Below, one piece after another: positions 2,372-59,699 of a stretch of 64,000 bases of DNA. Source of the DNA: Thalassia testudinum (Eukaryota; Streptophyta; Magnoliopsida; Alismatales; Hydrocharitaceae); contig JAZHRO010000039.1 in NCBI GenBank assembly GCA_037157565.1, positions 39,990,001 through 40,054,000 on the forward strand, read 5' to 3'. The notes under the pieces are model-generated. The model did not search any database and was not told where the DNA came from. It saw only the letters and a program-made list of their open reading frames with translations. The translations under genes and the position numbers were made by a program. Within the stretch, counting starts at the first letter, position 1. Each line of letters opens with the position of its first letter.

Positions 2372-2535
2372 AAGGTCGTCCCGAGAAGTGAATCAACTGA
2401 CTGGAAAATAACCAATTCACATGTTTATAGCTAGAGTAGCCACCACAACATATCTCTTGACTTGAGCTCTTAGAGGTTTCGTTAGGTACCATCTGTTTTG
2501 ACGTTTCCGTTTTCTTTCGCGTCTCCTTGCAGGAG

Positions 2536-37237: not shown

Positions 37238-37336
37238 TCACAAACGTGCAACGTATGAATTTGCTTGTGTAACATACCGTACCCATCTGTAGGGATTGTG
37301 GGATTTTGATTTCTTTGCGATCTGTAAATAACGTAC
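37238..37336 (-). CDS. AP4M: AP4M terminal coding exon
   Basis: 33 codons including TGA at 37238-37240. The acceptor upstream is a T-rich stretch ending TTTTTGCAG. Phase 0: it joins the Gln codon (CTGCAG) that ends the exon at 54414. Encodes VRYLQIAKKSKSH and the conserved mu C-terminus ending SYVARL. Confidence 0.95.
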   Translation of the reverse strand, partial: VRYLQIAKKSKSHNPYRWVRYVTQANSYVARL

Positions 37337-40300
37337 CTGCAAAAATTTAAGTTGATAAAAAAAGGACTCATAAAATTGTTCCATTTCTAGGAATCCAATG
37401 GTGTATGGGAATACGTTGCTATTTCCTTCCTCATAATATAACTAAACCATCATAATAAATAAGCATTCTCAAAAAGTAATTTTCAGAACTTGTGGCTTAG
37501 AAACATAAGCGATACTGGAGCTTATAATGTAATGGATTTCTACCGCAACATTGTTCACAGGATCTGCAGAAAAACTGCAGAGGAAGAACACCTGTGGTAA
37601 GTGGTACCAATCTTCTGAAATGATGGATGAAATATTCAATATGCTGATTACTGGGAGACAAACCGGAGAGGCCCAACAGTTCAGTTGCCCCACTTGCAAG
37701 ACTAACAAATTATCACTTACTTGAGCGTCTTCCGAATTTCATTGCAAAGGGGACAAATAAACATAAGCACCCGAATTGACGATCTATCTTCAAGTAACTG
37801 GGTTCCACTTTTAGAGCATAGGCCTCTTTCAAATATGCATCTAGGATCAATTACAACTATCAAATGTCAAAAGGATGTTATCGTTGGCTGTAGATCTCTA
37901 CAAGTAACATCTAGCAAATTGCAAACCTGCTGGGTTCCTTCTAGAAGGACCAAATATATAAAGTTTGTGTTTCAACCCCTTTGAAAAAGTGTCCCCCCGG
38001 GGAACGCACTCCACTGAAGTTCACCCGCCATGAATGAGATACTTGAATTCCGGTTCCGGTTCTTTTCAGATTTGGTTCCAACCCAACGCGGAAATGGCAG
38101 AGCAAATGTAATACACTTCGCACCTATCATAGCTAACTGAATCCCAGGAAAGGGAAACACTCACACTGTAAATGAAACATGAAACGCTCCCTGATCTTGG
38201 AATACGCTGCCTTAACTTAAAGAATGCTAACTAGGGAAACCTCTTGCCCCTGAATTACAGGTCAGGTCAGAGGCCCCTGCTATACCTTAGAGTCATCACT
38301 CCAACTCCCCTTCCTGAAAGGTAGCGAAGAACTAGGGGAATGGATTGATTAAGGAGGGTCATTTATGAATGGAATCCACTGCTATGCACATGGGTCACCT
38401 TGAGTCTTTTAAGACATTTGGATTATGGGTTAGACGTATGGTCAAACATCTGGATACCTTCCCAGACGTCTGGAAATAAAAAATTTTGAGAACGAACTCG
38501 CATCTGCGTACATGCTGTGCGCAGACAGTACACTTCCCTCGTTTTTTTCCTTCTCTCTCCTTTCGCTCGACGAAAACCCTAAACCCACACCTTATATAAC
38601 GCCCCCTCCTCTCCCTCGTTCCACCCCACTTTCCTCCTTCCCTCCAATGAGAGCAGCAGAGCGAGCGAGGAGCGATGTGAGCGGAGAGGGGGAGCAACGT
38701 GAGGAAGAGAGGAGAGCAAGCTTGCGAGCTCGCGTGGGAGTTCGTCGGTGAACTCACGGCCGGTCGACGCGTACGCAAGGCGGAGTGCGTCGGAGAGGAC
38801 CTCCCCGACACTGCTACAGCCAGAGCAGCAGGCGAGAGGGTGCGGCGTGATCACGCGCGGCACGAGAGGGTGGAAGCAGATTCTGGTTCTAGGGTTTTCC
38901 GAGAATCAGACGTCTGGAGCGATGTCCAGACGACGTAGCCGACGTCTAGAGGTTCTAGATGACTGAGAAGTAGATTTCGCGAAGGTACGTCTTCATTGCG
39001 AATACGACCATGCAGGCTGCTCCGTCGAAGTACTGTTTCATGTCCGATTTGAAAAGATTTGGTTGATTCGCGCAGGAGTTGCTTTGGGAAGGTGCGGGAC
39101 ACGCCTTCCCACGCATTTCAGATGTCTGGGCGAGGCACTAGACGACGGAAAGCGTTTCCAAACGTCCTGAGAGGTGGTCGGAGTCTGGAACTGAGTCCAA
39201 ACGGTCCAGTGGAGTTCCTGGACGTCTGAGGAGTAGCGCAGGACTTAAGGTATGGCACTTGACACTTTTAAGACGTCTGATTTGAGTCAGAATCGCTGTT
39301 TTTGACCCGTTTATGATCCGTTTGAGGTCCGATTTTCGCAATTAAGATACCGATGTTTCCTGTATGAATTCCCCTACTTGTTGGAATACTTTCTACACTG
39401 TTCTGAGTATTCTCCTGTGATTGATCCTTGTGATAGGGCATCGTTTCGTTGCGAGTTCGAGGCTTGCTGAGACACGTAGACCTATCGTTTAAGCCCTCAC
39501 TACTTCTGGATTTACTGGTAGAGTGGCTTACCCTAATTTAAATTCAAACCTGAATACATGTATGAATTGAATGATTAGATCCTATGGTATGACATGAATC
39601 ATAAGACTAGAAATACTGGAATGTTTGTATTGAATGAATGGATTGCAGTCTTAAATGAGTAGATAGAATGATAACAATTGCCTGTAAATGAATAATAGTT
39701 GCCTGCGAAATATGTAGTGCTTGTGCTAAATAACTGTTGTAACTTTCCTATCGCACACGTGAAATGACATAATATGAACTGCATGTATATAATTTGAAAA
39801 TGAAAAATGAATGTTGGAAACACGAGCTACCTGTGAATAACCTGAAATGTGAACAATAGAATTACATGTTACATGTGTAGAACCTGAGAATGGAAATATA
39901 GATGATGAAACCTAGTATGGAAAGACGTGAGGAATATGAGCAAGAATCCTACGTGAAATTAGGAGTAGAGCTCCTGGAAATAAATGAAATGAAACTGAGA
40001 ATGTGAGTGGGAAAGTGAGCTGGCCCTTGAGTACGGAGTACCAATGAGAGCGTCTGTCTCCTTGTTTAATGCAGAGCAGAACTAGCCGCCCTTGGGTTGG
40101 GACCCGGGGTTAGGATTAGTTACTCTATACCGACTTCTTAACCATCGTGTACACTGTACCGGGAAGAGCTACTAGTGTCGGGAAAGAGCTAGCCACCCCA
40201 CGGAACCTAGGGTTCAGCCAGCCGCCTTACACCGACTTGTTAGGCCCACTAGGCAAAGCAAGGTAATCAGGTGAGGATGCGCGGACTGTGGAGGTGCGAG

Positions 40301-43300
40301 ATCCCTGTTTGATTCTTAAAGGCTAGACCCCTGTTACTGAGAAGGTTATACTTTATATTGGTTCAGTGCTGTACTTTGAGTGCACCCGCTAACAGAAACG
40401 ACCGACCGCGTGCCAATGCGGGGTAGCTATCCGTACGCTTATCGCGCGTGCTGTAGTCACCATTACGTCTGTCCGTGACCTTAAGGTGGTTGACTGAGTA
40501 TAGAATTACCACGGGAGACTCAGTCAGGAGAGCACCACGTGTGCCTTCTACTCTTCGGAAAAGGCTGCAATCAAAATCGTTCCCACGAGGAACATTCAAG
40601 ATCAAGAAAGAGACATGATAAATAAACCAAGTGATAAAAAGAATAATTAGCTAAAGAGAGTATTTGAAAAATAGCTACCTGTCCACTTTTACTGCTTTAG
40701 TTAGTTGGTTGCCACTCTACTCAGCGTTCGTTGATTTCGTGTATTCAATCCTTTTCAAGCCTAGGTGTTGAGCAGCCAGATCCTACGATTGCAGAGGGTG
40801 CTGGTTCAGTAGAGCCCAGTAGTTGTAGCTCTTCTTGTACTCGTTTGTAGTAGTAAGTAGCTTCTTGTACCTTTATATTCTGTACTCTTTCGTTCTGTAC
40901 ATTATATTCCTGTACCCGTTTACTTTTCTACTGTTGTGGTGGTGTGTACTGTAGTAATTTTACTTCTTTACTGCTGTACTTTTGTCACTGTTAGTTACTT
41001 GTATGGTGAATGTAATTTACTTTATTACTTTTTGATTACTTTCTCGTTGGACGATTGGATCTAAGAATCAGTCGAGTCGATCCGATCTCATATCCTGTAA
41101 GGATTCAGAAATCAAGTCGTAACAGAAGAGGAGGAAAATTTGATGAGTGGTAGACTACCAGATAAATTTACTCCGCTACCTAGAAGGTTAACAACTCATC
41201 AACAAACAGGAAAGATTTTTTGCCAAATGAACCTTTAGCCACAGTGTGGATCATACATCCAAATTTTATGGTTACATTCATGAGAAATCAAACATGGATG
41301 CTAAGTTGCTAACATGAGAAACCTCTGATATATCTTTTTTGACTCATCGATATCGTTATTTAAAACTTTTGGCTCAAACTGAAGCACAATAGCTTGAGTG
41401 GACCAGAGTGCATGAAACCCATTTAAGCAAGGATCACATAAACTTCAACCTATAGGTTTCCAATAAAACTACTCCTCCCACCACTGCACCCTGTGGGTGG
41501 TCTTTGCATGGCAACATATAAGAAGGCATAAAGAAAATGCAAACAGAAGGGCCTGATGTTGTACCTAGCATAACTGTTCAAATACCTGTAACATTTGCAT
41601 TAAACGGAGATGCAGAAAGGTTCAGACAGTGTCCATTCTAGACTTCTCTTAATATTCATAGGTTCCCAATGATCCTGCCTTCATTCCATTGATCATTTCT
41701 GACTGATTCAGTTAAGCGCTCCCTATGCTTACCGAAATGAAGGGGACCATCCATTACTAGGGCAGTGAAGTGCCTGCCTTGTTAATGGGCAGGTCTATAT
41801 ATGACAGCCACATTCATTCCCGGAATCTGTTCCTTTACATGATATGAATACCCTCGCTTGCATTGGCTGCAAGCAGGCACTGTAGGTGTGTCTTGACCAT
41901 GCACTCCTGTGTTGTGTAACGTTAGATGCATTCTAGAGGTGGTCAAGTGATGAATTGAGTTAATTGACCTAAAAAAAAATCGAGACAAAGGTTCAATGAA
42001 TTAATGTGTCAACCATTTGGAACCTGCATGTTTAAGGTACCTTGTAGCCAATGACCATTTTGTCAAATTCCTTCGTACTCATAACCACAGTGCAATGCCT
42101 ATTTCATCTCTCTCGTTAAAAACAAGCAGAGAGCATGTTCTCAACATCTTGCTGGTACAACCACTAAGCCTGATTTCCCTCCTAAACCAAAGTTCTAAAT
42201 GCTGACTTTGATATTATTTCAATGATTTTGGAAATATTCATTTTGAAGGCATGCCAATATAATGTTAGAATTTCAAGGAATGTCCATAACCTCGATGCTC
42301 CAAGAAATAGGCATTTCCAAGGCACGCTGAAGGAATGCTAAGGAATTTTTGGAGTTTTATCAAGATGATTATAATTGCATTGATTCATATAGTTATGCCA
42401 CCGAAACTTGGTAAATATTTAAGAATTCCATCAAAAAAATTTAAGCATAAAAAAAAAGTAGGACCTAAGATCTAGCAATCACTCTGTAAAACATATAAAT
42501 CAATCTATGAAGATTTGCAGAGGCTGGATCAGTTGGAGATGAGGGCTGGCGAAGATTTACTGTTCACGTGAACAGTAGAATGAACAGAAACTTACCGTTG
42601 CCATGAGAAAATAAAAGAAAGGGAAGTTTTAGAAATAGAAAATATTATTGCAACTCAAGAAATCAAGTAGGTATTGCTCTCATTTAAAAGAAAAGCAATC
42701 ATAATCTTATTTCTAAAAATAGAAAATAAAAAATCAAATTCAAGCAACCAAACATGACAAACCAAATTCTAATTATTTCTAAAATAAAATCTACCACATA
42801 TGGCAACAAATAACTTGACATACAAGCAAACTCAACTCCTAAAAATCTTAAGGCCATGGTGGCCAACTCTTATAGACCTACTACTGTCATGTGGTAGTCC
42901 ATATGACATTCTAAAAAATCTCCACACTCCCAAGTCAAACTTCGAGAGGGGTGGACTTACCTTCAAGCTTTTTGTGGTGATAGAATGATGAGCAATCCCC
43001 TACACAATATTTGACACACTTTTCTTCGAGAAAATCTCCTCTTTTGGAAGAGGATAAAAAATCAAATATGAGGGCTCCATTGGTGAAGCACAAAGATCAC
43101 AAACCTCTTTATAACTTGATAGATCTCCTTCTCCCTCTCTTTAACTTTAGCCCCATCTCATGATTTTAATCTCTAGTTCTACCATCTTTTCTTATGAGGG
43201 AGAGGGTGGCCGTGTGACTCTATGTCCAAGACTCGGGCTCTATATCTCGACATTTCTTGGTATGCTAGATGATTCCATGCCCCATCATCTCATGATTTTA

Positions 43301-46300
43301 ATCTCTAGTTCTACCATCTTTTCTTATGAGGGAGAGGGTGGCCGTGTGACTCTATGTCCAAGACTCGGGCTCTATATCTCGACATTTCTTGGTATGCTAG
43401 ATGATTCCATGCCCCATCAGTTTGGAGCGAGCATAAGGTACTCGATTTCTCCGTGCCTCAATGCCGGTGGCTTTTACACCACGTGAGCTTGGTGTCTTCA
43501 GGTGTGTATAAGGCCACCAAACGTAACTATGAGAAGTTAATGCATAATCTTAATTTTGTAGTCTTGCACAAGTTCCACGTACATGAGCAACCTCTTGTGC
43601 GTGTTGAGATCTCCCTCATGCGTGGATTGCTAGAGGCCTAAGGAAGCTTGCTCTGATACCATGTGAAGGCTTGCGAAAGCTAGATCATGTGGAGATGAGG
43701 TCTGCTAAAGATTTGCTGTTTATGTGAGCAGTAGCATGAACAACTTACAGTTGGAGTGAGAAAATAAGGGAAAGAGGAGAGGAGCTTTAGGAATAGAAAA
43801 TATTATTGCAACTCAAGAAATCAAGTAGATATTGCTCTCCTTTTAAAGGGAAGCAATGTTGATCCTATTTCTAAAAATAGAAAACAAAAATCAAGTCCAA
43901 TCAACATATGGCAACAAATAACTTGACAAGCAAGCCAATTCAGCTCTTAAATATCCTACGGCCATAATGGCTAGCTCCTATGGACCTACTACCACCACGT
44001 GGCAGTCTACGTGATATTCTAAAAAATCACCACACAATCAATCATAGATCTAGCAATCTTTAGATTAATTAATCCTAGCATTGATCTACTGAAAACCTAT
44101 GGATCTACAATGTAATCCTTAACACCTACGGAGTGGTATCCAATATTTGTAAATGGGCATATAAACCTTGGGTGTTAGTTCATGTATCCTATTCTCATGT
44201 AAATAGTGTAACACACCGCTTCTCTTCTTTGTGCTTTTAGTGAAGAACAAAACCGTAGTTGTTAGTGGGCATTAAGGCCTTGTGGAGCTTGCGCTCCAGT
44301 GGTTTTTCCTGTGAGGGGTTTTCCATGTAGAATCATAGCTCTCATGTATGTGCTGAGAGCTAGGGCTTCTCAAGGAAATCTACTTTCCTAGTGAGAAGTA
44401 GCTTGCTTGCGTCTCAACTGTCTCCCCCGAGGGTGTGTGGTGGTCCAAGTGGTCTTGTTATGCCTCAAACCACCTCAGATCCTCGCTCTAGTATGGGTGC
44501 CGCTAAGGTTTTGACAGAGCTCTGACAACCATTCTTTCTTCAGTGACCACTCATTCTTCTCAAAACCTCATACAAGTCCCTACAGGGTGGCCTCCTGCCA
44601 CCGTAGCACCCTCTTGTTGTCGATTCTAACCTAAGTGATGCTGCTCCTCACCGTTACCACTCCGACAAAGCTCCAGCAACCACTGTCGACGCTTAAGCGA
44701 GTTACTTGGGCTCCAGTCAAAACTCCATTTTAGGGGTTTGGCCATCGGAGCTCTCGTTTGTGTTTTTGTGCTCTAAATTTGACTCAAAGTGCTAACCTCT
44801 ATAGTCATGATTTGATTTCAACTCTGTCCATTGTTTGGGTTGCTCTTGGTATTTCTTGGCTTTGGAAGCACCCACCTTTAGTTTTGATGGCAACACCTAA
44901 AGAAAAAATGGATATCGGACTGCTAAAGGGCCAAGATACCATGGATATTCAAATTACTATTGCCAAGTTGACGAAAGATAGCTACCTTTCGTGGTATGCA
45001 GCTGTCAAGATGGCCATTGCGGGAAGGGGGGATCAGATGTGTCAACAACACTAGGCCTAAATCCAATCCAACAGATAAATCATGGGAGAAATGGTACTTG
45101 GAGGATAGCCAAGTGAAGATGTAGATAGTTAATTTGGTCTTCACGAAGATTTAGTCTCTGATTTTGAGAAAGAAGACAGCTACAGAGATGTAGGAAGTGC
45201 TTAAAAGCATGCATGAACAGAAAAAAGAGGTTTGTGTGTATCATCTCATGAGAGAGATCTACAATCTTCACTAGGGCAATCTGTCTATTGCTAGCTACTA
45301 TGGCATGTTGAAACCCAAGTGAGAGGACTTGGATTACTATGCTATGAGACTTAAAAGTACACTACTAACCAGAAACTTTTTTGGGAGCGTGAGTGGAAAA
45401 AATTGACATTTACCTTCTTAGCAAGACTCAATCTCGAGTTTGAAGGCATAAGCAACCAGATCCTTAACTCATCAAAAAATTCCACCTTGAAGAAGTTTAC
45501 GCTGAGGTGCAAGGTCATGAATTCTGAGCTCACAAGTGCTAATGATAGCAACAAAGATATGGAGCATTTGATCCTTGTGAGTCAAGATTCAAGCAGTAGT
45601 AGGGCCAATCAGGACAATACAAGGTCCAGCGGAAAGTGCACCTACTATCACAAAAGCAATCATACTATAGACTATTATTGGGACCTGCACTTAGAGAAGA
45701 CCAAAGGGAAATTTAACCATAAATTTGCTAGCAAAACCCAAAATGTGAAGCCGATTGCAACCATTGCTTTTGAGGGCTCTAGATTAGGGAAGATTTCTAA
45801 AGAAGGAACAAAGCTGACTTTTCCTAACTTAACCATGAATCAGATTCAAGAATTACAAGGGTTGTTTTCTAAAGCATTGTCAACAAAAGAGGAGAGTTCT
45901 GATGCTAGGTCCCCCAACCATACTCTTGTAGCTCGGGGAAAGTCAAGTAATGGTTCTTTGGCTTCAAGCTCTAGTAAGGACGATTGGATATTGATAACAG
46001 GGTATGAAATGCAATTTTTTCCAACAATACAAATCTGATCATGATCAAGTTGCTATGGGCCAATGGTTTTAACATTACTGTTGCAGGGAAAGGGCACATA
46101 TCCATCTTAGATTGTTTTCTTCTTAGTCATGCTCTTCATGTTCCTGATCTTCCTTTTAATCTACTATCTGTGAGCAAAATTACAAAAGAAATTCCTGCAT
46201 ACTTATATTTGATGTTGATTGTTGTGTTGTAGGATTTGGTGATGGGGAGGAAGATTGGGATTGGTTTGATCTATGACGGACAGTACAAGCTTCCTTCTAG

Positions 46301-49300
46301 AGTTGCAACTGCACTTGTCATAGTTCTGTTAGATCACAAACAACATACAAAAGAAGTGGATCGAATTCTCAAATGGCATTATACAGTGGGACACCTCAAT
46401 TTGTTTGATTTACAAAAACTATTTCCGACTTTATTTTATGAAATTATTGTTCACTCTAACTGCAAAGTGTGTCAACTGGCTAAACATTGCTGCATCCTTT
46501 TTTTGAATTTAAAACTAAAAGTGACTGCTTTTTCATTAGTGCATTTTGATGTTTGATGACCAGGTAGTGTTAAATCTATTGATGGGTTCCAAATATTCTC
46601 TCTTTTATTGACAATTGATCACATTGCACCTTAATTTCCTCGATGAAAATTCATATCAAAGTGTCCAAAATTATGCAAATGTTTATTTTCATGGTTGAAA
46701 ATCAATTTAACATTGCAGTAAAAGTCTTTAGATCTAATAATGCTTGAGAGTATCTTGACAAATCTTTGGTCGACTTCTTCAGCAATAAAGACATCCATGA
46801 GACCTCCTATAGCTATACTCCACAACAAAATGGAATTACAAAGACAAAGAATAGCACCTGCTAGCTACTAGACAAGACACGAGCACTACTCCAGAAAAAT
46901 ATTCCCACGAAATTTTGGGCAGAAGTTGTTTTGGCGAGTGCATTCTTGATCAATAGAATGCCCTCTAGGATACTTGGCAGAAGAACTATTTTTTTCATGT
47001 TAAGGCCTGAATCTCAACCATTTTCTCTCACTCTTGGAGTGTTTGGATAAGTTGCTCCTTTTGAGTAAGTTGGATCCAAGGTCTATAAGAGGTATTTTCC
47101 TTCTCCCCCACTCAGAAAGGATATAAATGTCTTGATCCTATTACAAGAACATGATTTAAAAAAACAAGCCTCGAGGCAATCGAGGTGTACACCTCAAGGC
47201 GAGGCGACCCAAAATAGCCTTGAGGCGGTAGCCTCAGTTTACAGGCATGAAGCGTGCGCCTCACTTAGTCGAGGTGCGTTGAGGCGGTGCAAGGTGGTAA
47301 GGTGCAACTGAGGCGTCGCCTCAGGCTGTTTAAGTTGTCATATGCTTGTCACATGACATCTTTTAGGGTTTAATGACGACTAATTGTTTGATCATTATGA
47401 TTACTATCTTATCTGAATTTGCTTGTTTCTGTCCCTTATTTTTTATAGATGTCTTATTAGATAGTAATCAAGGTTTTAAATATCGATATCAATATCATAT
47501 CGACAAGTTAAAAAAGGAATATATCAGGGATATATCGCTGATATATGTGAATTCTAGGAAAATCATTCAGAAAGGCATAAAATATCACAAAATTTAAATG
47601 TTAACATTTTTACAAATAATATATCATGAAATGATGCTTAAAAAACATGCATATGTGTTATATCAGGGATACATCACCGATATCGATGATTTTTTTACAT
47701 GTGTGCATGCGTGTGCATGCATGAGCATGCATGTGTAGGTGTGTGTGTGTGAGCCACTGATTGGTTGGTTGACTCGGGTGCTCGACATAGATTTGATAAT
47801 GCCAGATACTTCTTTAGGCCAAAACTAGTTCCATCTGGCAGAACTATATTAGTTTCTAATGCGAGGCATTCGCCCATTATAGGTCAAGGAAAGGTACAAG
47901 ATGTACCTCACACTCACAGTACGACTGGAGAGTATGCTACAAGATGCACCTTACAGTACGACTGGAGAGTGTGCTTGTTGTCGATTTCCTTCTGAGTCTA
48001 ATGCTATTAGTAGAATTATGAAGCAGTTTAATTGCAAGTCACCATATGTAGGCCATGTTTTACTTCCATCAGGTGTCTCTTCCTCTACTTATTTGTAACA
48101 TCTCTGGTTCAGTTATCTCCACACTATCTAAGCTTTGACTGATGCTACATCAGGATGTCTAAAAAACATATATATCACCGATGTATGTGTGTCTTATAGA
48201 CCTCCCTTCCAACAGCTCCCAAAATCCCTTTTAGCAGCTCACCTCCCTATTCCACCAGCTCCCAAACCTCCCGCCCAGCAGCTCACTCCTGCCCAGCTTT
48301 CAAATTTCAAACCTCCCGCACAAAACCCAGCGCCAACAGCGCTTATATCGGCAATATCTCCCCGTATCAGCGATATATCACTAATATCCGGGAAAAAAGA
48401 TACTTCGGATGTATAGATATCATCCAACCCCATCAATAGCGATATATAGACGATATATCGCCGATATATTGCGATATTTCAAACCATTACAGTAATTCAA
48501 CGATGTTAAGAAATTTCACAAAAGACTTGAAGGTAGCAGCAAAATTGAAGAATTAGCACTTGAAATGTGGAAATTTATATAAGATTGAGGTATCAGAGCT
48601 ACTGGTGTCAGTTCATGGACCCTATATATTACATTTTTTTTGTGGTCTTCTACAATCCATGTTTGTTTAGTTTTTCGATAGTAGCTTTGTCAGAATTCAG
48701 AAACACGTCAAGTTATTTTATGTTTTAGGCAACATGATAGTGCAAGAAGGTAGGCGATGGTTCTTTACTTGAGATGGAAATTAATGTTTATTTTTAAGGA
48801 GCCCTGTTACTAAGGATCTTCATCTTCAAAACTTTTTTTGTTGCAGAAGTCTCTTCTGAGGTAGGACTTTATGTCATGGTATTAATATTCACAGGTTATG
48901 TTTTCCTTGAAGAGAATTTAACAAGGTAGTAACTGGTAAGCATTAAGACCATCTCTCAATTAAGTACAGAATCCAAGTTTATTCGTGTATGACTATGGCC
49001 AATATTTCATTTGAGCTGCCATAAGTGGAATCATAAATGAGTGATTTGGATTTTCCTACCTATGCAAATTTTTCTAAGAGTTCATATGAAGATATTTTTC
49101 TAACAATATACATTAACAACCAATAACAAATGTTTCACTAGGTGACTAGAGTTGCACTATGTGGTGAACTACTACTTCATGCAATACTTTAGATGGCTAC
49201 TTTCGACTAGCCGTCCTCTTCAAAAAAGGGAAAAAAACCCGTACGAAACACAATCTTTGAAAGGAAGATTACCATCCAACACACATATCTCATTTGGACT

Positions 49301-52300
49301 TCAACCTTTTCTAATACTTCTTGGATCATGCTGTCAAATACTATGTGACAAGTGGGCTTAATTCTAGCTTGATAGAGGGGTTGGGGGGTTATATGCTATA
49401 GGGTGCTTATATAAATCATTTTGTAATTTATTTTTGTGGGGTTATAACTTGTGATGGAAAAAAAAAAGTTATGAAAGTGTTATTTACGTTATTATTTCCT
49501 TATTAGCACTTAACAAGTATATATCATATCATTTTTCTATATTTTTTATGCAAATCCTGAGGCTTAAGCCTCGACCGCCTCGAAGCTTATGCCTCACTTC
49601 GATGAAAGCAAACCGCTTCGATACCACCTCTCGTTTTTTAAAACCTTGAGTAAGAAATATGTTTCCCCCAATGTCACCTTCCTTGAAATTGTGCATTATT
49701 TTTCTTCCCTCAATCCTCTTCAAGGGAAGAGTGCTATCACTCAAGAAGAAGACTTTGGGGCAATACTGTCAAGGCGCTCGCCTAGGCGCACCTAGGCGCC
49801 AGGTTGAGGCGAGGCGAGGCCCTAGCGCCTCGACAAGACTCGCTTCTCCTGATTTGCCTGAGGCGCTGCCTAGGCGAGCGCCTGGGCCAAGGCGCTAGGC
49901 ACCCCAGGCAAGCGCCTAAACCAAGTTTACTGATTTTTCATTTTTTTAAATACTTTTAAGGATTTTAATTTCTTTTCACCTAACTATTAGGTAATATCTC
50001 TTAGTTAAACACACACATATGCGTATGTATATGCACATATGCATATGTACATACACGCACACATATTTTGTATGTCTGTATATGTATGTACATACATGTC
50101 AACTTATACATACAAATATATATGTGCATACACATGCATGCATGTGCATAACATATAAATATAATGTGTACATTTACATGTGTATATGTAAATGTACGAA
50201 ATTGTATGCACACATGATATGTATCAATGTGCATATGTATGTGCATTATGCTTGTTTGTCTAATCACTTATATATCTTGTATATTCTATATATGCAATTA
50301 TAACATACCATATTTTAGTTACTGTGTATATATGTATGGCTACATGTGTGTGTGTATTAACACCTCATTTTTCTCAGGTGAGCACCTAGCGCCTCAGGCA
50401 TTTTGGACCCCCAACGCCTTTTAGCGCCTCTCGCTTTTGACAGCCTTGCTTTGGGGTTCTTGGGCTCACAGATATGGATCATGTGGATGAGAATGATAAC
50501 AAGGGAAAGAAGAGGATAGTGGTGTAAACAAGAGTTATGGAAGAATGTACAATAAGAGACAATGAGGACAAGAATCTAACTATAAGACCCATCCCAATTC
50601 TTCTTTAGTCCCTGCACCAAATCCAGATCTAGATCTAGGATGTGACACTGAAGGTCAGGACTTAAGGTTGCATGCTCCTTTAATTGTCTTAGAGACCGAT
50701 GATCATAATGAGATTGAGAGTGTAGGTATTGTGGAAAATATCTCAAGTAAATGCTGGAGACATGCCTATTGCTCTCAAGAAAAGAGTTAGAGAATGTACA
50801 AAATACCCTATAAACAAGCATGTGGCTTATTCTAAATTGAGTCCCAATTATAGATTTTTTTATCCTCACTTGCCTCCTCTGTGATCCTAGGAATGTTGTT
50901 GAGGCACAACATGACCCCAAGTGGGTAAATGCTATGCGGGAGGAGGCAATTGCTCTAGTAAAAAATCATACTTGGGATATTGTTAATACTCCCAAGGATG
51001 CTCATATAGTTGGCTAAAAATGGATGTACACTCCCAAATACAAAGTCGAAGGGCAAATTGATAGATACAAAGGCCACTTGGTGGTAAAGGGATTCACACA
51101 CAAGTATTGAATTAATTATTGTAAGACCTTTTGCTCCTATAGCTAAAATGAATTCTAGTCAAGTCATTCTAACTATTGTTATCCATTACTCAAGGAAGCA
51201 ACACAAATTCGATATAAAAAATGCTTTCTTGAATGGTGACTTGAAAAGAAATCATCTATATGAGTATGCCTCCAAGATATGAGCAATAAAAGAAACTACT
51301 GTAAGCTAAAAAAAGGCACAACTTCCCAAAGCATGAGTTGAATGTCTTCGCCTTGCAATGGGAAATCAAGAGTATAAGGGAATGGTGATTGTACCGTCTT
51401 TGTGAAGCAAAATGCAAGCAAAAATACCTTGCTAATTGTGTATGTTAATGACATAATTGTCATTGGAGATGAAGAAATTGCTATAATTAAGAATCATCTT
51501 GCTAGCCAGTTTGAAATCAAAGACTTGGACAGGTTGAAGTACTCTCTTGGGATAGAGATTGCAAGGTCTAGGGACAGTCTCCTTAGGTGTCAAAAGAAGT
51601 ATGTTCTTAATTTGTTCAAAGAACTAGGGAAACTTGGCTGTAGACATACTCCCACACCTATTGATACAAATCATTGCTTGAGTTCGAATGATGGGAAGCA
51701 ATTAGATGAGCCAGAGAAAAATAGATACCATAAGATTGTAGAAAAGCTGATTTACCTTACTTTAACTCGACTTAATATCACTTATGCAGTTAATGTTGTC
51801 CGTCAATTCACGCATGGCCCAACGAATACTCATCTCGTAGCTGTCAATCATATCCTCCATTATCTAACGAAAAAATCAAAAGAGGCATTCTATTCTCCAA
51901 GGGAGACTCGATGTCGATTGGACACACTCTGTGGATGATAGATGGTCTACCACTGGATATTGTATATACCTTGGTGGAAATCTTCTTATATAGAGGAGCA
52001 AAAAGCAAACCATCTGTGCAAGATCCAGCACGGAAGCTGAGTACAGAGCTATAGGTATAGGAGTTACTGAAATGTTGTGGTTGAAAATCCTACTTGTTGA
52101 TATTAGTATTCAACCCGCGACACCCATGAAGCTCTATTGTGATAACAAGGCCGCCATCAATCTTGCCGACAATCCTATTTTGCATGATGAAACAAAACAC
52201 GTCCATCTAGATATATACTTCATTCATAAGAAGATTGATTATGAAGATCTATGCCTTTCATACTTGAGATCAGAGGATCAAATTGCAAATATCTTCACTA

Positions 52301-52593
52301 AAGGCCTTGCTCCGATGCAATGTGAGAAGAATGTGAGCAAGTTCAGCATCTTCTAACATTTTGCCCAACTTGAAGGGGAGTGTTGAGTGGTGTCCAATAT
52401 TTGTAAATGAGTATATGAACCTTGGGTGTGGGTCCATGTAAGTTATTCTTATATAAATAGTGCAACACACCCCTCTCTTTGTGCTTTTCATGAAGAGCAA
52501 AACCCTAGTTGCTAAGAGAAACTAGGTCCTTTGTAGAGCTTGTGCTCTAGTGGGTTTTCCCATGAGGGGTTTTCCATGTAAAATCATAACTCT

Positions 52594-52624
<31 letters not shown>

Positions 52625-54875
52625 GCACTCTTCAATCTACAAGACCCATAATAGAAACAATCACTTGAGAGATTGTAGTTTAACTCTATCTTATAGAACA
52701 ACATATAACTCCTATTTGGCTTTAGAAAAGTTAAAGTACCTCAAAGATCTAAGAAAAAGGAAGAAAACCTTAAAAGAGCTTTTCTCACTCTAAGATCTAA
52801 GAAAAAGGAAGAAAACCTTAAAAGAGCTTTTCTCACTCTAGCAAATAAGCAGCAATGACAATGGATAAAAGTAGACTACCACGGCACCTATGTCGACTTT
52901 AAAATATAGAAATGGTACAAAAATTGCACTGTCCCACCCATTTCAACCATTAACAAACAATTGAAATTTAACAAAATATCATTAACACCTAAATTTTGAT
53001 ACAAGACATTTGTTGATATGCCCTATATCAGAAAAAGGACATTTTTCCAGCATGCCCATGGCATGCTGAACACCATCGTAAATAGATTCTGGATCTCTTA
53101 CACACCTCAGATACATTCTCAATCTAATGTCTATGTGAGGCTTTCTTCCCTGCCGAGGGATTTGGCAACCTAAGAACAAACAGAAATACCTGACAATATT
53201 ATTTTCAATATCTTCATGTTTAGATACTCCAAAACATTAACAAGTGCTTTTCGTTTCCAACATTGAACCATACCATTCCTCGTGATGCTAGGCCCATATC
53301 CAACTGGCCCATGCATTCAAGTACCATTTGAAAATTTCCCAAGGAAACAACTATTTAGAGATTGCTGGAATAGGGAACCTGGACTTTAAAGACAAACTAA
53401 ATCTAACTACTAATAGTTTCCTTGCTTCAAGAACCATTTGGAGAATTTCATTGCTTGTATCTCTACTTTAGGGAAGCTTTGGGCCTCAACTATGTAATCT
53501 TGGCCTCCTTTTTGGGCCTTTTTTAATACAATTTCCGAATAACCACCCCTCCCCCTTTCAAAAAAAAAAAAAGTTTCAGCTGGTAACAAGCTAACCCCCA
53601 AATGATACCTGGCAAATTCAAGGCTAACTATATCCTTATCAGTGATTTAAATGCCATCGGCATGCCAACGAAATAACAATTTTTGGAGATATACCATGTC
53701 GACATGCTCAAGTTATCGAAATGCAGGTATTTCGCAGCCATGCCGACTGCCAACGGCATGCTGCTGCTCCTACTGTTGTTACTGCTCTTGTTGCAACTCT
53801 GCTACTGTTGCTGTGTAGGTCACGTATCGACATATTACATATGAAATAAAAGATAATTTAGGACTTAAATGAAAATATTTATCCATTGAAATTATTATTT
53901 CTAAAATTTTAATCATTTTGACTACTTCTGTCATTTTTCTCGGCATGTGTCGACATGCCCTTGGTATGCCGGCGAAATGCGCATTTAGATATTTATCAAA
54001 ACGACATTAAAATCGATATTTCAAATTAAGATCGGGTCCAAGTTGGTAGGAAATGAAAAATATGGGAGGACAATAGCTCTTTTTTTCTTTCCCAAGGAAG
54101 GTCAAGTATTTTTTATAACCAGTACTTCAGAACCAATACAAATAATGTGAAATATTTGAAGGTGATTTATGGCTGTATATGCCTGCTCTGCCCATGTCCA
54201 GTTGGACATTCTAAATTATTTGATTGTTATTATGCATTAATATTTTTTTGTTGGTTTTAAATTCATAATCATTTAAATAAAGTCTAAGACTGAATAACAT
54301 AAACACTGAATGAACCTTGTAAGGGGCGATATGGTAATTTTTTCTTAAAACTATAGCACAATGTTCTAGATAATTTTGGTTTATGGACGGGTGAAGCATT
54401 AGGGTTATAGTACCTGCAGCCGAGAAGCATTGTACATAGGTATAGTGAAGGACATATTGACTGGCCCAGCCTCCTTCGTGAGATTCCCTGCATTTAATTA
54501 AAAAAATGCAGAGATAAGCACGCCATGAACGAGTAAATGTAGCTAGTGTGGTAATCTAGTAATGTCATGAAATTTTCACTTGTACCATGAGATTCCTGTG
54601 AAAATGTTAGCTTTGCACGAAGTGTATGCTCAGAGCCACCTACTATCTACAGCAGAATTTGTAGATATCCAAGTTACAATAGTGGCAAAAGCTAATGTAC
54701 CAAAGAAAAACCTTATTGACAAAAAGAGCTTCTGTAATTCAAATAAAGAAAGGGAATATGCTATGCAGATTGATATAAGAGCAAAACCTTTTTCAAGCTC
54801 CATTCCAATTTTTTGTTTCCTTCTTTGAAATCAGTTGTCTGTCCTACAGCCCCAGGCTCTAGTTCAAAGCTAACT
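37238..54875 (-). CDS. AP4M: AP-4 adaptor complex subunit mu, C-terminal exons (partial gene)
   Basis: The medium subunit of AP-4, a clathrin-type adaptor that selects membrane cargo (vacuolar sorting receptors among others) at the trans-Golgi network. Four coding exons on the minus strand encode the end of the mu homology (cargo-binding) domain: 54875-54788 (VSFELEPGAVGQTTDF to LEWSLKK), 54646-54586 (IVGGSEHTLRAKLTFSQESH), 54487-54414 (NLTKEAGPVNMSFTIPMYNA to SRLQ) and 37336-37238 (VRYLQIAKKSKSH, then NPYRWVRYVTQANSYVARL, stop TGA). Reading phase is kept across every GT-AG junction and no stop interrupts it. The sequence agrees closely with my recollection of plant AP4M. Upstream exons (about 340 residues) are not in the window. 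The last intron is 17,077 bases and full of transposons. I see no damage in the exons themselves. Confidence 0.94.
38391..41124 (+). mobile_element. Solo LTR of the Tekay/Del family
   Basis: 2.73 kb, same orientation as the LTR at 1-2356 and colinear with it, ending CGTAACA at 41124. No primer site follows (GAAGAGG instead), so it is not attached to an internal region. The 5' end is diverged; TG at 38391 is my best start. The flanking five bases (GCACA left, GAAGA right) do not match well, so either the start is misplaced or the flanks have changed. It lies in sense with the plus strand, antisense to AP4M. Confidence 0.82.
38593..38599 (+). promoter_or_regulatory. TATA box of the LTR promoter
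   Basis: TATATAA in a GC-rich context within the U3-like part of the solo LTR; the inverted LTR copy has TTTTAAA at the equivalent place. If active it would transcribe antisense to AP4M. Confidence 0.55.
41125..42505. other. Intron stretch without recognisable element
   Basis: No LTR, terminal inverted repeat or protein homology seen on either strand; short open frames only. Confidence 0.5.
43154..43417. repeat. Exact 132-base tandem duplication
   Basis: 43154-43285 and 43286-43417 are identical as far as I can read. The 108-codon open frame at 43160-43486 exists because 132 is a multiple of three; I do not believe it is a gene. Confidence 0.95.
43650..43661 (-). other. Primer binding site, tRNA-Met type
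   Basis: The minus strand reads TGGTATCAGAGC immediately after the LTR end, fixing the element's orientation. Confidence 0.93.
44887..46038 (+). pseudogene. copia gag and protease remnant
   Basis: ATG 44887 opens MATPKEKMDIGLLKGQDT and reads to LSWYAAVKMAIAGRG before frameshift. Gag resumes at 45403 with FLARLNLEFEGISNQIL. The zinc knuckle at 45637-45690 reads CTYYHKSNHTIDYYWDLH: the second and last cysteines of CX2CX4HX4C are both Tyr. The protease motif near 45983 is DDWILITGYE, having lost the catalytic Asp of the usual D-[ST]-G. No function is possible. Confidence 0.85.
46041..47149 (+). pseudogene. copia integrase remnant, 5' part
   Basis: GAG-pre-integrase segment at 46236-46556 (WHYTVGHLNLFDLQKLFP and CKVCQLAKHCC). 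The core at 46690-46860 reads FRSNNA then a stop where FRSDNG is usual (catalytic Asp to Asn), and QQNGITKTKN where QQNGVAERKN is usual (catalytic Glu to Lys). FWAEVVLASAFLINRMPSRI follows near 46910. GYKCLDPITR at 47120-47149 is where the hAT-type insertion begins. Confidence 0.85.
47142..47149. repeat. Left flank of hAT-type element, possible 8-base duplication
   Basis: TACAAGAA here against AGTAAGAA at 49649-49656: five of eight bases agree, consistent with an old duplication. Confidence 0.5.
47150..49648. mobile_element. Non-autonomous hAT-type element inside copia pol, itself containing another
   Basis: Terminal inverted repeats are CATGATTTAAAAAAACAAG on the left and CAAGGTTTTAAAAAACGAG read from the right. 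Both are followed by GCCTCGAGGC-rich subterminal repeats (47166-47330 and 49558-49600). Copia protein reads ITR on the left and YVSPNVTFLE on the right, so the host frame resumes after it. Without the nested element its length is about 1.47 kb. No transposase seen. Confidence 0.78.
47469..48488. mobile_element. Nested hAT-type miniature element with GATATATCG subterminal repeats
   Basis: Left end CAAGGTTTTAAATATCG; right end read inversely AATGGTTTGAAATATCG (three mismatches in 17). Flanks are ATAGTAAT (47461-47468) and ACAGTAAT (48489-48496), an 8-base duplication with one mismatch. Subterminal GATATATCG motifs match those at the left end of the 28253 hAT element, its likely transposase source. 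The interior at 47765-48060 resembles a copia protease/pre-integrase segment (VDSGAR, LVPSGRTILVSNARHSP, IMKQFNCK), possibly captured sequence. Confidence 0.78.
49649..49752 (+). pseudogene. copia pol remnant between two hAT-type inserts
   Basis: Reads KKYVSPNVTFLEIVHYFSS then LNPLQGKSAITQEEDFG, the segment after the integrase C-terminus of plant copia elements. It proves that both flanking insertions landed in one original polyprotein. Confidence 0.8.
49753..49760. repeat. 8-base target site duplication, left copy (CTTTGGGG)
   Basis: Exact copy at 50449-50456; the 8-base length is diagnostic of hAT transposition. Confidence 0.9.
49761..50448. mobile_element. 688-base non-autonomous hAT-type element
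   Basis: Inverted ends are CAATACTGTCAAGGCG and, from the right, CAAGGCTGTCAAAAGCG. There is an exact 8-base target duplication CTTTGGGG. Subterminal arms are dense in AGGCG/CGCCT repeats (49770-49915 and 50380-50430). The middle (50010-50350) is TATGTACATA-type low complexity. Removing the element and one duplication restores the host copia frame (EEDFG joined to VLGLTDMDHVDE). Confidence 0.93.
50449..52356 (+). pseudogene. copia reverse transcriptase and RNase H remnant
   Basis: RT starts near 50890 (EAQHDPKWVNAMREEAIAL) with many stops to 51400. The open part 51402-51938 carries the catalytic box as YVNDIIV instead of YVDD (Asp to Asn at 51447), then IKDLDRLKYSLGIEIARS and RYHKIVEKLIYLTLTRLNIT. 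RNase H follows with ARSSTEAEYRAI, LYCDNKAAINLADNP and HVHLDIYFIHKK, ending TAA near 52356. The polypurine tract and 3' LTR follow directly. Confidence 0.9.
52381..52634 (+). mobile_element. 3' LTR of the copia element
   Basis: Starts TGTTGAGTGGTGTCC right after AAGGGGAG. Homology to the 5' copy is good to about 52590; beyond that a TG/CG microsatellite has replaced the sequence. Confidence 0.8.
52593..52627. repeat. (TG)n-(CG)n microsatellite
   Basis: Alternating purine-pyrimidine run of TG followed by CG units, capable of Z-DNA, within the copia 3' LTR. Confidence 0.95.
52744..52839. repeat. Exact 48-base tandem duplication
   Basis: 52744-52791 and 52792-52839 are identical copies beginning AAGATCTAAGAAAAAGGAAG. 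It lies in the AP4M intron. Confidence 0.95.
53640..54030. mobile_element. Candidate miniature inverted-repeat element
   Basis: Both halves carry inverted copies of CGGCATGCC and CATGTCGACATGC-like palindromes (53655-53720 and 53940-53985). Its outer ends CAGTGATTTAAAT and, inversely, CTTAATTTGAAAT are weakly similar. No convincing 8-base duplication. A related palindrome CAGCATGCCCATGGCATGCTG sits at 53049-53069. Confidence 0.45.
54414..54487 (-). CDS. AP4M: AP4M penultimate coding exon
   Basis: 74 bases: two bases completing a Gly codon plus 24 codons (NLTKEAGPVNMSFTIPMYNA then SRLQ). The acceptor is AAATGCAG on the minus strand at 54488 and the donor GTACTATAA at 54413. Confidence 0.95.
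54586..54646 (-). CDS. AP4M: AP4M internal exon
   Basis: 61 bases: 20 codons (IVGGSEHTLRAKLTFSQESH) plus one base of the next Gly. Acceptor CTGCTGTAG, donor GTACAAGTG. Confidence 0.94.
54788..54875 (-). CDS. AP4M: AP4M internal exon, most upstream one visible
   Basis: 88 bases: the last base of an Arg codon plus 29 codons starting VSFELEPGAVGQTTDF. Acceptor TTTATTCAG, donor GTTTTGCTC. The exon before it should encode the FP...VQMPLP segment of the mu domain, and I could not find that on the minus strand up to 57638. Confidence 0.93.
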
Positions 54876-56309
54876 CTGAATAAATCAATAAGCAACAGCA
54901 GGTCAGTGGATTGTCCAAAATGCATCAAACTAACAGTAGATGTGGTCATAAAAAGTACACAAGAATCAGACTTTTTTCCATATTGCCGTAGACAACTCCC
55001 CTTGCATTGTCCTTGGAAACTTAGCCACGTTCCTGATTTCTATTAATTTGAAATTTCGATTAAGTAAAGCCAGAAAATAACCCCATAAAATCCAACTCCA
55101 TAACATATCTGAGGAACATTGCCATCTATCATACACAATCTATTTTGTATGTCAACTTTTGGAAAATTGCTATTTATCAATTGAAAATTTTCAATTCATC
55201 TTATTAAATAAAATAATAATGGATCATCACTTCACCTCTTTTATCTCTTATGACATCGCAACTAATACGGGAGCCTTAATCCATCTAGAGTACTCGTATT
55301 GGAATAATTGGGCATGGCAAAGATGGATACATGTATGGATTGGGTACTCCATCTTGCCCTTGAGGCTATTCTCCAAAGATAATCATTCCAGACCCTGTCA
55401 TGCCTTGAATCCCTCCAACATTTGTCCCCCATGGCAACCAGAAGTTCCACCTGTTTCACCCTTACATCTGTACCATGTGTGTTGGCAAAGGAGTGTTGTA
55501 CAAACTTGTCATTTCCATACACATGGCTGAACACCCAGGTACTCAACCATAAACAAACATAAATGAAGACCTATACATGCATGCACACACAAACACACTC
55601 ACCTGCTCATCCACGGAAGCACAGACATGCAAGTCCACCAGACCACCACCACCCCCCCCCCCCCCCACTCTCCAAAATAAAAAACAAAAAAAAACAAAAA
55701 CGAAAAAAAGGTTTAGCTGATGCTTATTTTATTTTATATTTTTACATCTGAGCGGTTCTTATTCCTTTATGTAACATGTTACTCTGCAAAAGGACAGTGA
55801 ACATGCATATAACATGTTGCTCTACAAAAGTACAGCCAACATGCATGTACAGTTCTTATTCCTCTTCGCAACACCAGTCTATTCTTCTCAGAGACAGTTC
55901 TGGAGTGAGGAAGATCTACTGGATAAATTGCATTCACAACATGGGCTAAATCACGAGCTAATTAATACATTGATCAAAATCTATTATACATGTACTTTTA
56001 AGAATTATTGATCAAATCATGGAACCTCCACAAGGAATAGTTTATTTCCAATACACAAAAAACAGAAAACAGATTTTTAAAAAACTATAATGGTTGCAAC
56101 AGGAACCAGCACATCTAAGAAAGCAATAATATTAAGTGCCAGGGTAAAAAATCCAACAATAATTTGTCAACATTAGATCTTCAAGCAACAAAATCTGGAC
56201 TTTATACTCATGCATTACATGAATTGGTTTATTACATGCGTGAAACTATAAGGAGGCAGCTTCAAAAGTCAAGCAGGAAACTTCACAGTGTTATAATTGC
56301 ATATGATCC
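54876..56309. other. Probable AP4M intron sequence without recognised gene
   Basis: No upstream AP4M exon and no transposon termini seen. It includes a run of 15 C residues at 55652-55666. Confidence 0.45.
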
Positions 56310-57000
56310 TTGAATAGCTCCCAAGCTCTCCAATTCCATTCTTTTAGCTATTTGCCAACTAATGTGTACCGGATCCAATTCTTTAGCTGGTCCTTAAACC
56401 ATATCAAGTGGTTCCCACTTGTACAGAGATCCAAAATTTCACGTTACACATTCTCCACATGCAATCCTTCCCATCGAATGAAAGCCCTATTCCTCTGCAA
56501 TCATGGTGGCCAAAGGATCACCTTTATCCAAGCTCTCAATTTTGCAGCATCGCCTGTCTCCCTTCTACGAGCCTCCCACAAGTGGTCCAAAGAAGACTGA
56601 GTCAACTGCCCCCATGGTAACCATGCCAAACAAACATAAAAATGCAAAGAACGAGTGGTCAGTTTTTCAGATCCACATCCTTCTTTCCAACCCCCAATCT
56701 TCACATCAGAAGGAGCATGTAACATCACCTTTCATTTCCCAGCTACTCATGCACCCTGTGGTCACCAATTTGTCCATGAGCAACCAGCCAAAAAAATGAT
56801 TTTGAGCTAGACTTTCGATTTTCAAGTAATACTGCAATCTGATAGGTTGTCACCAAGTAGGGCCGGCTCTACGGAAGAGAGTACACCTGACTTATAGAGA
56901 AATTTCTATTGGGCCTTACAAAAGCATCTGGTTCATCATCTCTCAGGCCAAAATATCTCAAAGCTGACACTAAATATCTGCAACTCAACAAGTCTAGTGT
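56310..57000 (-). pseudogene. LINE ORF2 C-terminal (zf-RVT) remnant
   Basis: Minus-strand frames read SSKSFFWLVAHGQI near 56820 and, at about 56640-56480, CLAWLPWGQLTQSSLDHLWE followed by WIKVILWPPWLQRNRAF. These resemble the zf-RVT domain that follows reverse transcriptase in plant LINEs (FFLW-HG pattern and W-x-RN motif). Several frameshifts; no RT catalytic box and no target duplication found. More uncertain than the other element calls. Confidence 0.5.
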
Positions 57001-57638
57001 TGGAACAAGCACTTCCCCGAGTAAGGTACCCAGATGCCTACCCTACTCTGAAGGTGCATCCAGCTGCTGCCAAAACTTTGTCCTTTAATTTTTCCTACCT
57101 GTAAAGCTTCATAACCAATTCTAATAAAACTACAATACACGTCCAACCATCTGTCCAGATGGAAAAGACTTTTCCATGGCCAATCATTGAGAAAAATGAG
57201 TAACAACCCTGTAAATGACAACCACAAGTCCCTTCCAAAATGGAGAACCCTTCTCAAAACAAATTCAAAGATCATTACTTCCCACCAGATTCAAAGTCCT
57301 GCCACAACAAGCAAATTGAACTTGGCTTCAATGCTCATTTCAATTTGCTAACAACTTAACCATCCACCTTGCAACCAGACCGCTGAACAATACAACCAAG
57401 CCAACATACCCAAATACCTGCAAATACCCTCCCAAAAAACCAATGAATAGAGGAACCTATAGAACAAGCTCCCTCCATAAAGATTTCTACCTCACCAATC
57501 TAAACTTAATCTCCACCTTCATAGCCAGTTGAAACACCTACAAAAGGGCAGGCCCCCTCCACCCTCCCCCCCCAACACTAGGGGGGTTTTTTCCTACCCT
57601 CTTTTGTTCTTTGCAGCAAAGACCTTTTTCTAATTATG

Positions 57639-59403
57639 TGTGAGGATTTGTGCGCTACGGGAGCATGGAGGCTCTTCCACGTGAAGAGAAAACGCAGCAG
57701 CAGGCTGCTGCAGTTGATGGCGCATGCTGAACAGAGAGAGAAAAGAGAGTGCAGCCAGTGGTGCAGGAGAAGAGAGGTGAGAGAGAGAGAGAGAGTTGTT
57801 TTATTTGTAGCGAAGATAATGTATTCAACTCAAAGAAACTTATATAGGTTCTCTCTATACATAGAGAGCAAATCCTAATCTCAAAACAAGAAACAAATCT
57901 AATCGAATCTCCTAAAAATAGGAAACATCAAATCCACTTAACAACTTGCCTAAAAGACATATCACTATACTAAAAAAGTAAACTTGGACTCTAGGTAAAG
58001 ACAAATAAATCCCTTAGGGCCGACGCCCCTTGGTAGACCAAAACCTGCCATGTGGCATTGCCACGTAGCCTGATAGACTTGCCACATGACCCGACAGATC
58101 AACTACATGGCCTTTATTCTCCACACTCTCCCTTAAGTCAAGGTCGGGAGGACGATGATTTGCTCTACTTGTCTAGTTGCTGATGCAGCCAGATGTTCAA
58201 CCATCTTCTTTTGATGTAACTACAAATCCTCTTGCCACCTCCATAATCATTGCTTCTTTGGCAACCTTTGAAGCCGTAGCTATTGGAGCAATCATCTTGT
58301 CTTTATATAACTTGATAGACTCTCTTCTCCAACTTCTTCATCGTGTCCTTGGACTTGGGCTCCTCCTTGAGTAGGACATCAACTTATCCTGTCCTCCCAC
58401 GAAGATCTTGAACGCTTGAGCCCATAGGAAATAGCGCGAGGCATCCTGAAGCTTGATCGTGGTGCCTTAAACTATAACATTTTCTTCCCCGACATTAATT
58501 TGATTCTCGCTCTCAGCCATCTCTGTCTTCGAAAAACGAGCCTTCCTCTACTTGTACGCTTCACGTAAGGCACTAGATGCATGAGGGAAGCCATCCACGG
58601 AGTCCTCTGCATGTCTCCTTGGCCCTTGTGTAAGGCGCCAAGGTCCTTCAAGGAATTCTTTGAAAGAACTCACAAACCAACGAAAATGCCTCGACACACA
58701 AGGCTCTGATGCACGTGAGAATCACACACAAGATATGGCCTTCTTGTGTGTGATCTCTTGCCTTCCTCATGGGTGGAAGAAGGCTATCCGTTGAGAGAAA
58801 AAGACAACACATGGCTGCAGTCCATCAGAAAAGTCACGCACAGACTGTTGTGCGTGCCGTTTCTCCTCTTCTTCGTTCCATGTGCGTGGAAAAATCTCCG
58901 GGAAAAGCCTAAATCGATGGCTGTGATACCATGTGAAGATTTGTGCGCTATGGGAACGTAGAGGCTCTTCCACATGGAGAGAAAATGCAGCAGCAGACTG
59001 CTGCAGTTGATGTTGGCGCATGCTGAACAAAGAGAGAAGAGAGTGCAATCGGTGATGGAGAAGAAGCGAGGAGAGAGAGGAAGTTGTTTTATTTGTAGAA
59101 AAGGTAATGTACTCAACTCAAAGAAACTTACATAGATTCTCTCTATATAGAGAGAGCAAATCCTATTCTCAAAACACAAAACAAATCTAATCAATTCTCC
59201 TAAAAATAGAAACATCAAATCCACTTAACTTGCTTAAAAGGCACATCACCATACTAAAAAAGCAAACTTGGACTCTAACTAAAGCCAAATAAACCCCTTA
59301 GGGCCTACACCCATTGGGTGGACAAAAACCTACCACATAGACTGACAGACTTGCCACGTGGCCCAATAAATCTGCCACATGCATTTGGCCTTTATTCTCC
59401 ACA
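57639..59403 (-). mobile_element. Second small non-autonomous LTR retrotransposon with gag remnant
   Basis: LTRs at 57639-58125 (487 bases) and 58932-59403 (472 bases). On the minus strand they start TGTGGAGAATAAAGGCC and end CTTCACA; a Met-type primer site variant follows (58920-58931), and AAGGGAGAG precedes the 3' LTR. Flanks are TTATG and ATATG, four of five matching. The internal minus strand near 58480-58385 reads TTIKLQDASRYFLWAQAF then KIFVGGQDKL, a piece of copia-type gag. The LTR ends and purine tract resemble those of the 42506-44034 element, so they may be relatives. Confidence 0.88.
58920..58931 (-). other. Primer binding site, variant tRNA-Met type
   Basis: The minus strand reads TGGTATCACAGC, one base off the usual TGGTATCAGAGC, directly after the LTR. 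Confidence 0.85.
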
Positions 59404-59540
59404 ATATGAATACAATATTTTAGGGTAATGATTACTTTTTAGATTGATCTAATATTTTGGGATCATGATTTATATATGGAAAAGAGTTATATATGGAGGG
59501 CAATAATAATCGAAAACTCCAACTTCAATACACCTACACC

Positions 59541-59683
59541 TGTTAGAGTTATTATAGTCAGGAGCTCTTATGTTATTTTTATTTTCCCATTGGGTCTTCC
59601 TTATAATTTATCCAACACCTCTCTACATATAAAGAGGGTTCAAGTTTCTGTTGATGAATAATACATCTTATTCTTTTCCAACA
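59541..59683 (+). mobile_element. 5' LTR (143 bases) of a second Ty1/copia element
   Basis: TGTTAGAGTTATTATAG to TTTTCCAACA, with a TATA-like ACATATAAAGAGG at 59614-59626. It is followed at once by TGGTATTGAAGTGGGG, a variant Met-type primer site. The 3' LTR lies beyond the window, so the start is inferred from the TG and typical length only. Confidence 0.65.
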
Positions 59684-59699
59684 TGGTATTGAAGTGGGG
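59684..59699 (+). other. Primer binding site of the second copia element
   Basis: TGGTATTGAAGTGGGG, abutting the LTR end; TGGTAT matches the initiator tRNA-Met complement and the rest is changed. Confidence 0.65.

Follow-up and report, generated by a model that had tools for sequence, protein, structure and literature searches.

Structure and identity of the AP4M gene

The 64,000-nucleotide stretch of Thalassia testudinum DNA analyzed here (the window; C44:39990001-40054000 in an assembly of 4.26 Gb and 237 contigs) carries on its minus strand the 3' quarter of AP4M, whose product we take to be the mu subunit of the vesicle adaptor AP-4, presumably assembling into AP-4 and serving in vacuolar sorting. 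Four exons, numbered 10 (54788-54875, 88 nt), 11 (54586-54646, 61 nt), 12 (54414-54487, 74 nt), and 13 (37238-37336, 99 nt including the stop codon TGA), join in frame and translate without a lesion into the C-terminal 107 residues and a stop (VSFELEPG...SYVARL*). Their acceptors are TTCAG, TGTAG, TGCAG, and TGCAG, the donors are GTTTTG, GTACAA, and GTACTA, and the three intervening introns of 141, 98, and 17,077 bp are all of the GT-AG type. The longest of these, intron 12, occupies positions 37337-54413, and its third codon is an in-frame stop; according to this reading frame, retention of the intron would add V-L-stop after exon 12 at the cost of the last 32 residues.

Neither profile nor tblastn searches revealed upstream AP4M exons within the window. 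Because a profile of the 344 upstream residues had no match there better than E 8.6, no more than the gene's 3' quarter lies in the window. The possibility of a truncated gene or pseudogene was dropped once the other nine exons turned up in order within the adjoining 100 kb (tblastn, Magnolia protein). The complete gene has 13 exons with 1,356 nt of coding sequence (CDS), 451 residues, and one stop. It spans 43,164 bp (37238-80401 in continued window coordinates) on a single 114-Mb contig, and the 164 kb of sequence drawn on contain no N. All 12 introns are GT-AG, and their lengths in order are 1775, 605, 3298, 112, 8023, 352, 173, 99, 10055, 141, 98, and 17077 bp, so that introns 5, 9, and 12 (8.0, 10.1, and 17.1 kb) contribute 35,155 of the 41,808 intron bases (84%). 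An earlier note, made from the letters of the window alone, had proposed four lesion-free AP4M exons spliced in phase and a last intron of 17,077 bases. The exact coordinates, splice sites, and translation bear this out, although the four exons proved to be 4 of 13 and the 17-kb intron one of three large introns in a 43-kb gene.

The first query was an Arabidopsis AP4M sequence, and database homologues subsequently bore the identity out. A profile built from 172 full-length homologues of AP4M recovered all four exons among the six-frame open reading frames (ORFs) of the window (E 1.6e-18 to 4.7e-9), with the next-best score at E 3.3. The joined tail is 93% identical to Opuntia and 91% to Magnolia, and contains the mu homology domain PF00928 (88.2 bits versus a cut-off of 31.6). 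For the whole protein, the best match is from Tasmannia (88.9% over 451 aa; recorded as a clathrin adaptor complexes medium subunit family protein), and the Magnolia sinica record 'AP-4 complex subunit mu-like' is 87.6% identical and co-linear over 451 of 451 residues. Against the PDB, the tail matched AP-1 mu first (E 1.4e-11) and AP-4 mu next (E 8.4e-10). A 41-row tree placed the protein within a starred magnoliid and monocot group (support 100/98), next to one assembly protein (92/94, not starred). By homology, then, the four exons are the 3' part of plant AP4M, as the note had named them.

Transposable elements in intron 12

Six or more transposable elements (TEs), two of them nested inside a third, had been reported in intron 12. 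The nesting was reproduced and the count came down to five supported elements, which by their coordinates cover about 12 of the 17 kb. The nested pair lies in a decayed Copia element on the plus strand (44125-52610, edges approximate), with long terminal repeats (LTRs) at about 44125-44352 and 52382-52603 and no convincing target-site duplication (TSD) where one was sought. The two LTRs are 80% identical over a 223-bp BLAST core and 78% over 237 aligned sites with slightly wider ends, corresponding to a Kimura two-parameter (K2P) divergence of 0.275 for the 237 sites. Of its coding domains, RVT_2 scored above the cut-off (43.2 versus 31.6 bits) and gag_pre-integrs below it (26.5 versus 28.4 bits). 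This divergence translates into about 11 million years at a substitution rate of 1.3e-8 or about 90 million at 1.51e-9, with neither preferred. The slower value is the magnoliid rate used in the Chloranthus spicatus genome paper (PMC8626473).

The first nested insertion (47150-49648) is flanked by a degenerate 8-bp TSD (5/8), and the Copia reading picks up again beyond it. The second (49761-50448) has an exact 8-bp TSD, CTTTGGGG, with copies at 49753-49760 and 50449-50456. We take both to be hAT-like from the 8-bp TSDs and the ends, which are traits of that family. A TG/CA-rich imperfect palindrome is located at 50024-50197 in the second insertion.

The two remaining elements lie closer to exon 13. 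A Ty3 LTR piece on the plus strand (39271-41124) resembles the stretch that precedes a Ty3 ORF at 2461-5286, matching parts of 568-2356 at 68-75% and, outside the window, another LTR-like sequence of this genome at 79%; its left edge and a TSD were looked for and not found. On the minus strand, a 1.5-kb TRIM-like LTR element without a long ORF (42506-44034) is bounded by the TSD CAATC/CAATC and has at 43650 a putative primer-site motif. Inside this element, a 132-bp tandem duplication (43154-43419) is probably recent, since it is perfect although the LTR element is old.

Constraint on the AP4M exons

The tail of the protein retains 19 of 19 invariant columns in an alignment of 187 homologues (3 of 190 were dropped for gaps) and has a single private residue. 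We compared this state with simulated neutral decay of the tail exons at four distances between 0.05 and 0.1375 per site, with 5,000 runs each; the largest distance equals half of the Copia LTR divergence. At none of the four distances did any of the 5,000 runs end with one or no unseen residue. The simulated probability of a stop was 0.79 at distance 0.1375 and 0.47 at 0.05, and the chance of all 19 columns remaining unchanged ranged from 0.002 at the largest distance to 0.12 at the smallest.

Several points weigh against the gene having stayed functional. At distance 0.05, 53% of the runs were stop-free and 12% kept all 19 columns, so that the stop and invariant-column measures are the weaker ones and leave room for a short period of neutral decay. 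Across all 451 residues, 2 of 120 invariant columns differ (R21H and E307V) and seven residues are private, a level matched or exceeded by 13 of 144 homologues. The neutral time itself may be inflated by the use of LTR divergence, which is taken from methylated TE DNA. Finally, the captured AP4M fragments described below stop in exon 12 and carry no information on whether intron 12 is removed. Because the residue measure in the tail beats simulated neutral decay, we nevertheless conclude that constraint on AP4M persisted after the intron grew; the result speaks against neutral decay after the Copia element inserted and supports the proposal that the gene stayed functional during intron growth.

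AP4M fragments elsewhere in the genome

A protein search of the genome with Magnolia AP4M, in which 94 of 180 candidates received scores and which therefore makes all fragment counts lower bounds, gave at least 109 matches, eight at the gene itself and 101 in 46 other loci on 25 contigs. None of the 46 is complete, and 43 contain one or more in-frame stops within a match, the other three being short and stop-free. No second intact AP4M occurred among the matches scored in protein and DNA searches of the genome. The earlier note had named an intact copy elsewhere as an outcome that would tell against it; the 46 loci found are all fragments. By the residues held, nine loci were called class II, 21 class I, and 16 unclassified, and DNA comparison moves at least five of the 16 (L021, L026, L032, L034, and L036) to class I. 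When one class II stretch served as a DNA query, with scores for 40 of 70 candidates, at least 41 matches came back from 40 places. Of these, 38 coincide with the 46 loci; the two new places have almost nothing or nothing of the AP4M portion, as judged by query mapping.

Fragment structure was read from 26 of the 46 loci (30 were retrieved, of which two were the gene and two were duplicates); examples are L044 (C24:133669001-133679000), L046 (C64), L043 (C16), and L045 (C15). Class II copies contain CDS positions 555-1200, from the middle of exon 5 to the middle of exon 12, or part of this range. In class I, a genomic AP4M piece is fused to CDS 814-1191; the longest such piece extends without a break from intron 1 to exon 3, including exon 2 and intron 2, others are shorter, and by reading the join shows 4 nt of microhomology. 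Introns 5 to 11 are absent from every spanning copy at junctions 5/6 through 11/12 (6/6, 7/7, 22/22, 26/26, 26/26, 24/24, and 9/9), with at most 4 extra nt. The test counts unbroken alignments only, and nowhere in the list of alignments is a copy split at one of the seven junctions.

That seven introns are missing so exactly points to capture of the AP4M fragment from spliced, reverse-transcribed RNA, an origin that we consider probable with good confidence. The immediate source may have been cDNA or the DNA of a retrocopy. The fragments likewise indicate that introns 5-11, including those that are now 8.0 and 10.1 kb long, were spliced where the gene model predicts. An identical 10-nt gap at the beginning of exon 8 is common to both classes (seven copies shown), as is the non-AP4M sequence that follows exon 12 (five copies shown), so classes I and II share one origin. 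Mean divergence was 0.119 between the gene and class I, 0.135 between the gene and class II, and 0.221 between the two classes (16 and 7 loci, respectively).

Carriers of the fragments

Three class II copies that could be read to both ends are 7.5-8.2 kb long. CACTA-type ends were found on both sides of L046, on the left of L044 (right end altered), and on the right of a copy on contig C11 (left end altered), and all three copies have matching 3-bp flanks (TTA, ATT, and CCT). To judge by these ends and flanks, the three copies are CACTA-type transposons. One class I copy has a right end of CACTA type, with CGA, and its nearest left-end candidate is preceded by CAA; class I would belong to the same carriers because it shares sequence with class II. 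No ORF of more than 162 aa was found in the three carrier copies checked, one of them partial. An LTR retrotransposon as the carrier was rejected, as L043 has an LTR-like stretch that seems to have inserted later, and seven AP4M-carrying loci yielded no primer-site motif; a Helitron was dropped on the evidence of the CACTA ends and 3-bp duplications.

Weak matches to other proteins, all below Pfam cut-offs, were seen in AP4M-sense coordinates: ABC-transporter matches at 3326-3649 and 3805-4095 in class II copy L044, and a Gaa1 match at 1034-1330 in class I copy L043. They may represent additional host-gene pieces taken up by these elements.

Other introns and the rest of the window

The window part of intron 9 (54876-64000, minus strand) belongs to an intron of 10,055 bp that reaches 64930 in extended coordinates. 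It contains a direct-repeat, LTR-like pair at 57639-59403 (K2P 0.150 over 463 sites, 0.8 kb apart), for which a TSD was sought and none found, and a Copia remnant at 61257-63416. Intron 5 holds a remnant resembling a long interspersed nuclear element, with two RVT_1 matches and one zf-RVT match, all below cut-offs (E 8e-6 to 2e-4).

Besides AP4M, a Pfam scan of 28 distinct long ORFs in the window gave TE-type domains or no match. The claim that AP4M is the only host gene there thus stands for long ORFs and extends no further, since such a scan would overlook a gene built of short exons. Rfam and tRNA scans gave no match. The Ty3 element at 2461-5286 has a 941-aa open frame (gag, protease, and reverse transcriptase) and a primer-site motif at 2360, and its gag piece had six matches in protein searches, all distant (29-34% identical). 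An ORF at 29668-30027 matches DUF659 (39.8 bits versus a cut-off of 34.7) and is probably a remnant of a hAT transposase, a family with which this domain is linked.

Interpretation and alternative explanations

We consider it very likely that the locus is the one intact AP4M found, in whose introns TEs piled up while all 13 exons were held by purifying selection. Old retrotransposons and hAT-like elements would have gathered mainly in introns 5, 9, and 12 during this time. The whole 43-kb pre-mRNA would be transcribed, its exons recognized through exon definition, and the heterochromatic intronic TEs read through, a step aided in Arabidopsis by IBM2/EDM2. There, transcripts are polyadenylated prematurely in intronic TEs when heterochromatic marks or IBM2/EDM2 are lost (PMC10241880).

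The alternative that survives best also assumes a working gene, with intron 12 acting as a switch: polyadenylation or chromatin state of its TEs would determine how much AP4M is made in full length relative to a form truncated at the C terminus. The in-frame stop at the third intron codon fits such a product, and the intronic TEs of Arabidopsis RPP7 and PPD7 are described as acting in this way (PMC10241880), but we regard it as unlikely.

A further proposal concerns the carriers. A CACTA lineage that lacks a long transposase ORF would have captured a reverse-transcribed piece of spliced AP4M mRNA, later gained the genomic piece, and spread to at least 46 loci; that transcripts or small RNAs of these copies feed back on the single 43-kb gene is an idea that we regard as unlikely.

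A recent duplicate or dying copy, which lost function lately while another AP4M does the work, might be suspected from the many AP4M-derived copies and the 86 of 180 candidates that were unscored; however, each of the 46 further loci found is a fragment, the sole complete exon set seen is at this locus, and its residues are conserved, so this reading is already largely refuted and very improbable. Equally improbable is a long intron created by an assembly join of unrelated sequence, a failure to which repeat-rich regions are prone, given the 114-Mb contig, the absence of N from the sequence used, and the TE boundaries with exact TSDs within intron 12.

Comparison with known systems

Introns stretched by TEs, as in AP4M, are an already known pattern, ordinary in some large plant genomes, because it is documented in Chloranthales, magnoliids, and gymnosperms. 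According to the Chloranthus spicatus account, long genes and introns are prevalent in Chloranthales and magnoliids with LTR elements as the main contributor, orthologue introns average 3,681 bp versus 153 bp in Arabidopsis, and 876 of 2,184 orthologues exceed 20 kb (PMC8626473). Thalassia AP4M resembles these genes in being conserved, longer than 20 kb, and lengthened in its introns by LTR elements, although the portion of that account available to us does not name AP4M (PMC8626473). Similar long introns are described for Magnolia biondii (PMC7917104), and TE-rich introns, many above 20 kb, for gymnosperms (PMC9364684); both cases come from other lineages. What AP4M offers is a detailed example of a host gene that grew to 43 kb under constraint, in which an intronic TE was timed against exon decay, and of a gene that exon-poor gene finders could split.

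In importance, the fragment carriers outweigh the long intron. Two related carrier classes share an AP4M piece that apparently passed through spliced RNA, and an RNA route into DNA transposons is therefore open to study. No clear case surfaced in literature searches on DNA transposons capturing intron-free genes, which does not prove absence, and the main text of a 2026 review contains no word beginning with 'intron' or 'spliced'. Like the Pack-CACTA elements and soybean Tgm-Express1, as described in the available text of these reports, the carriers combine CACTA ends with host fragments from more than one gene (PMC8903248, PMC1947982). Those elements capture chromosomal DNA, in Tgm-Express1 with the introns included, whereas the AP4M piece is carried without introns 5-11 (PMC8903248, PMC1947982).

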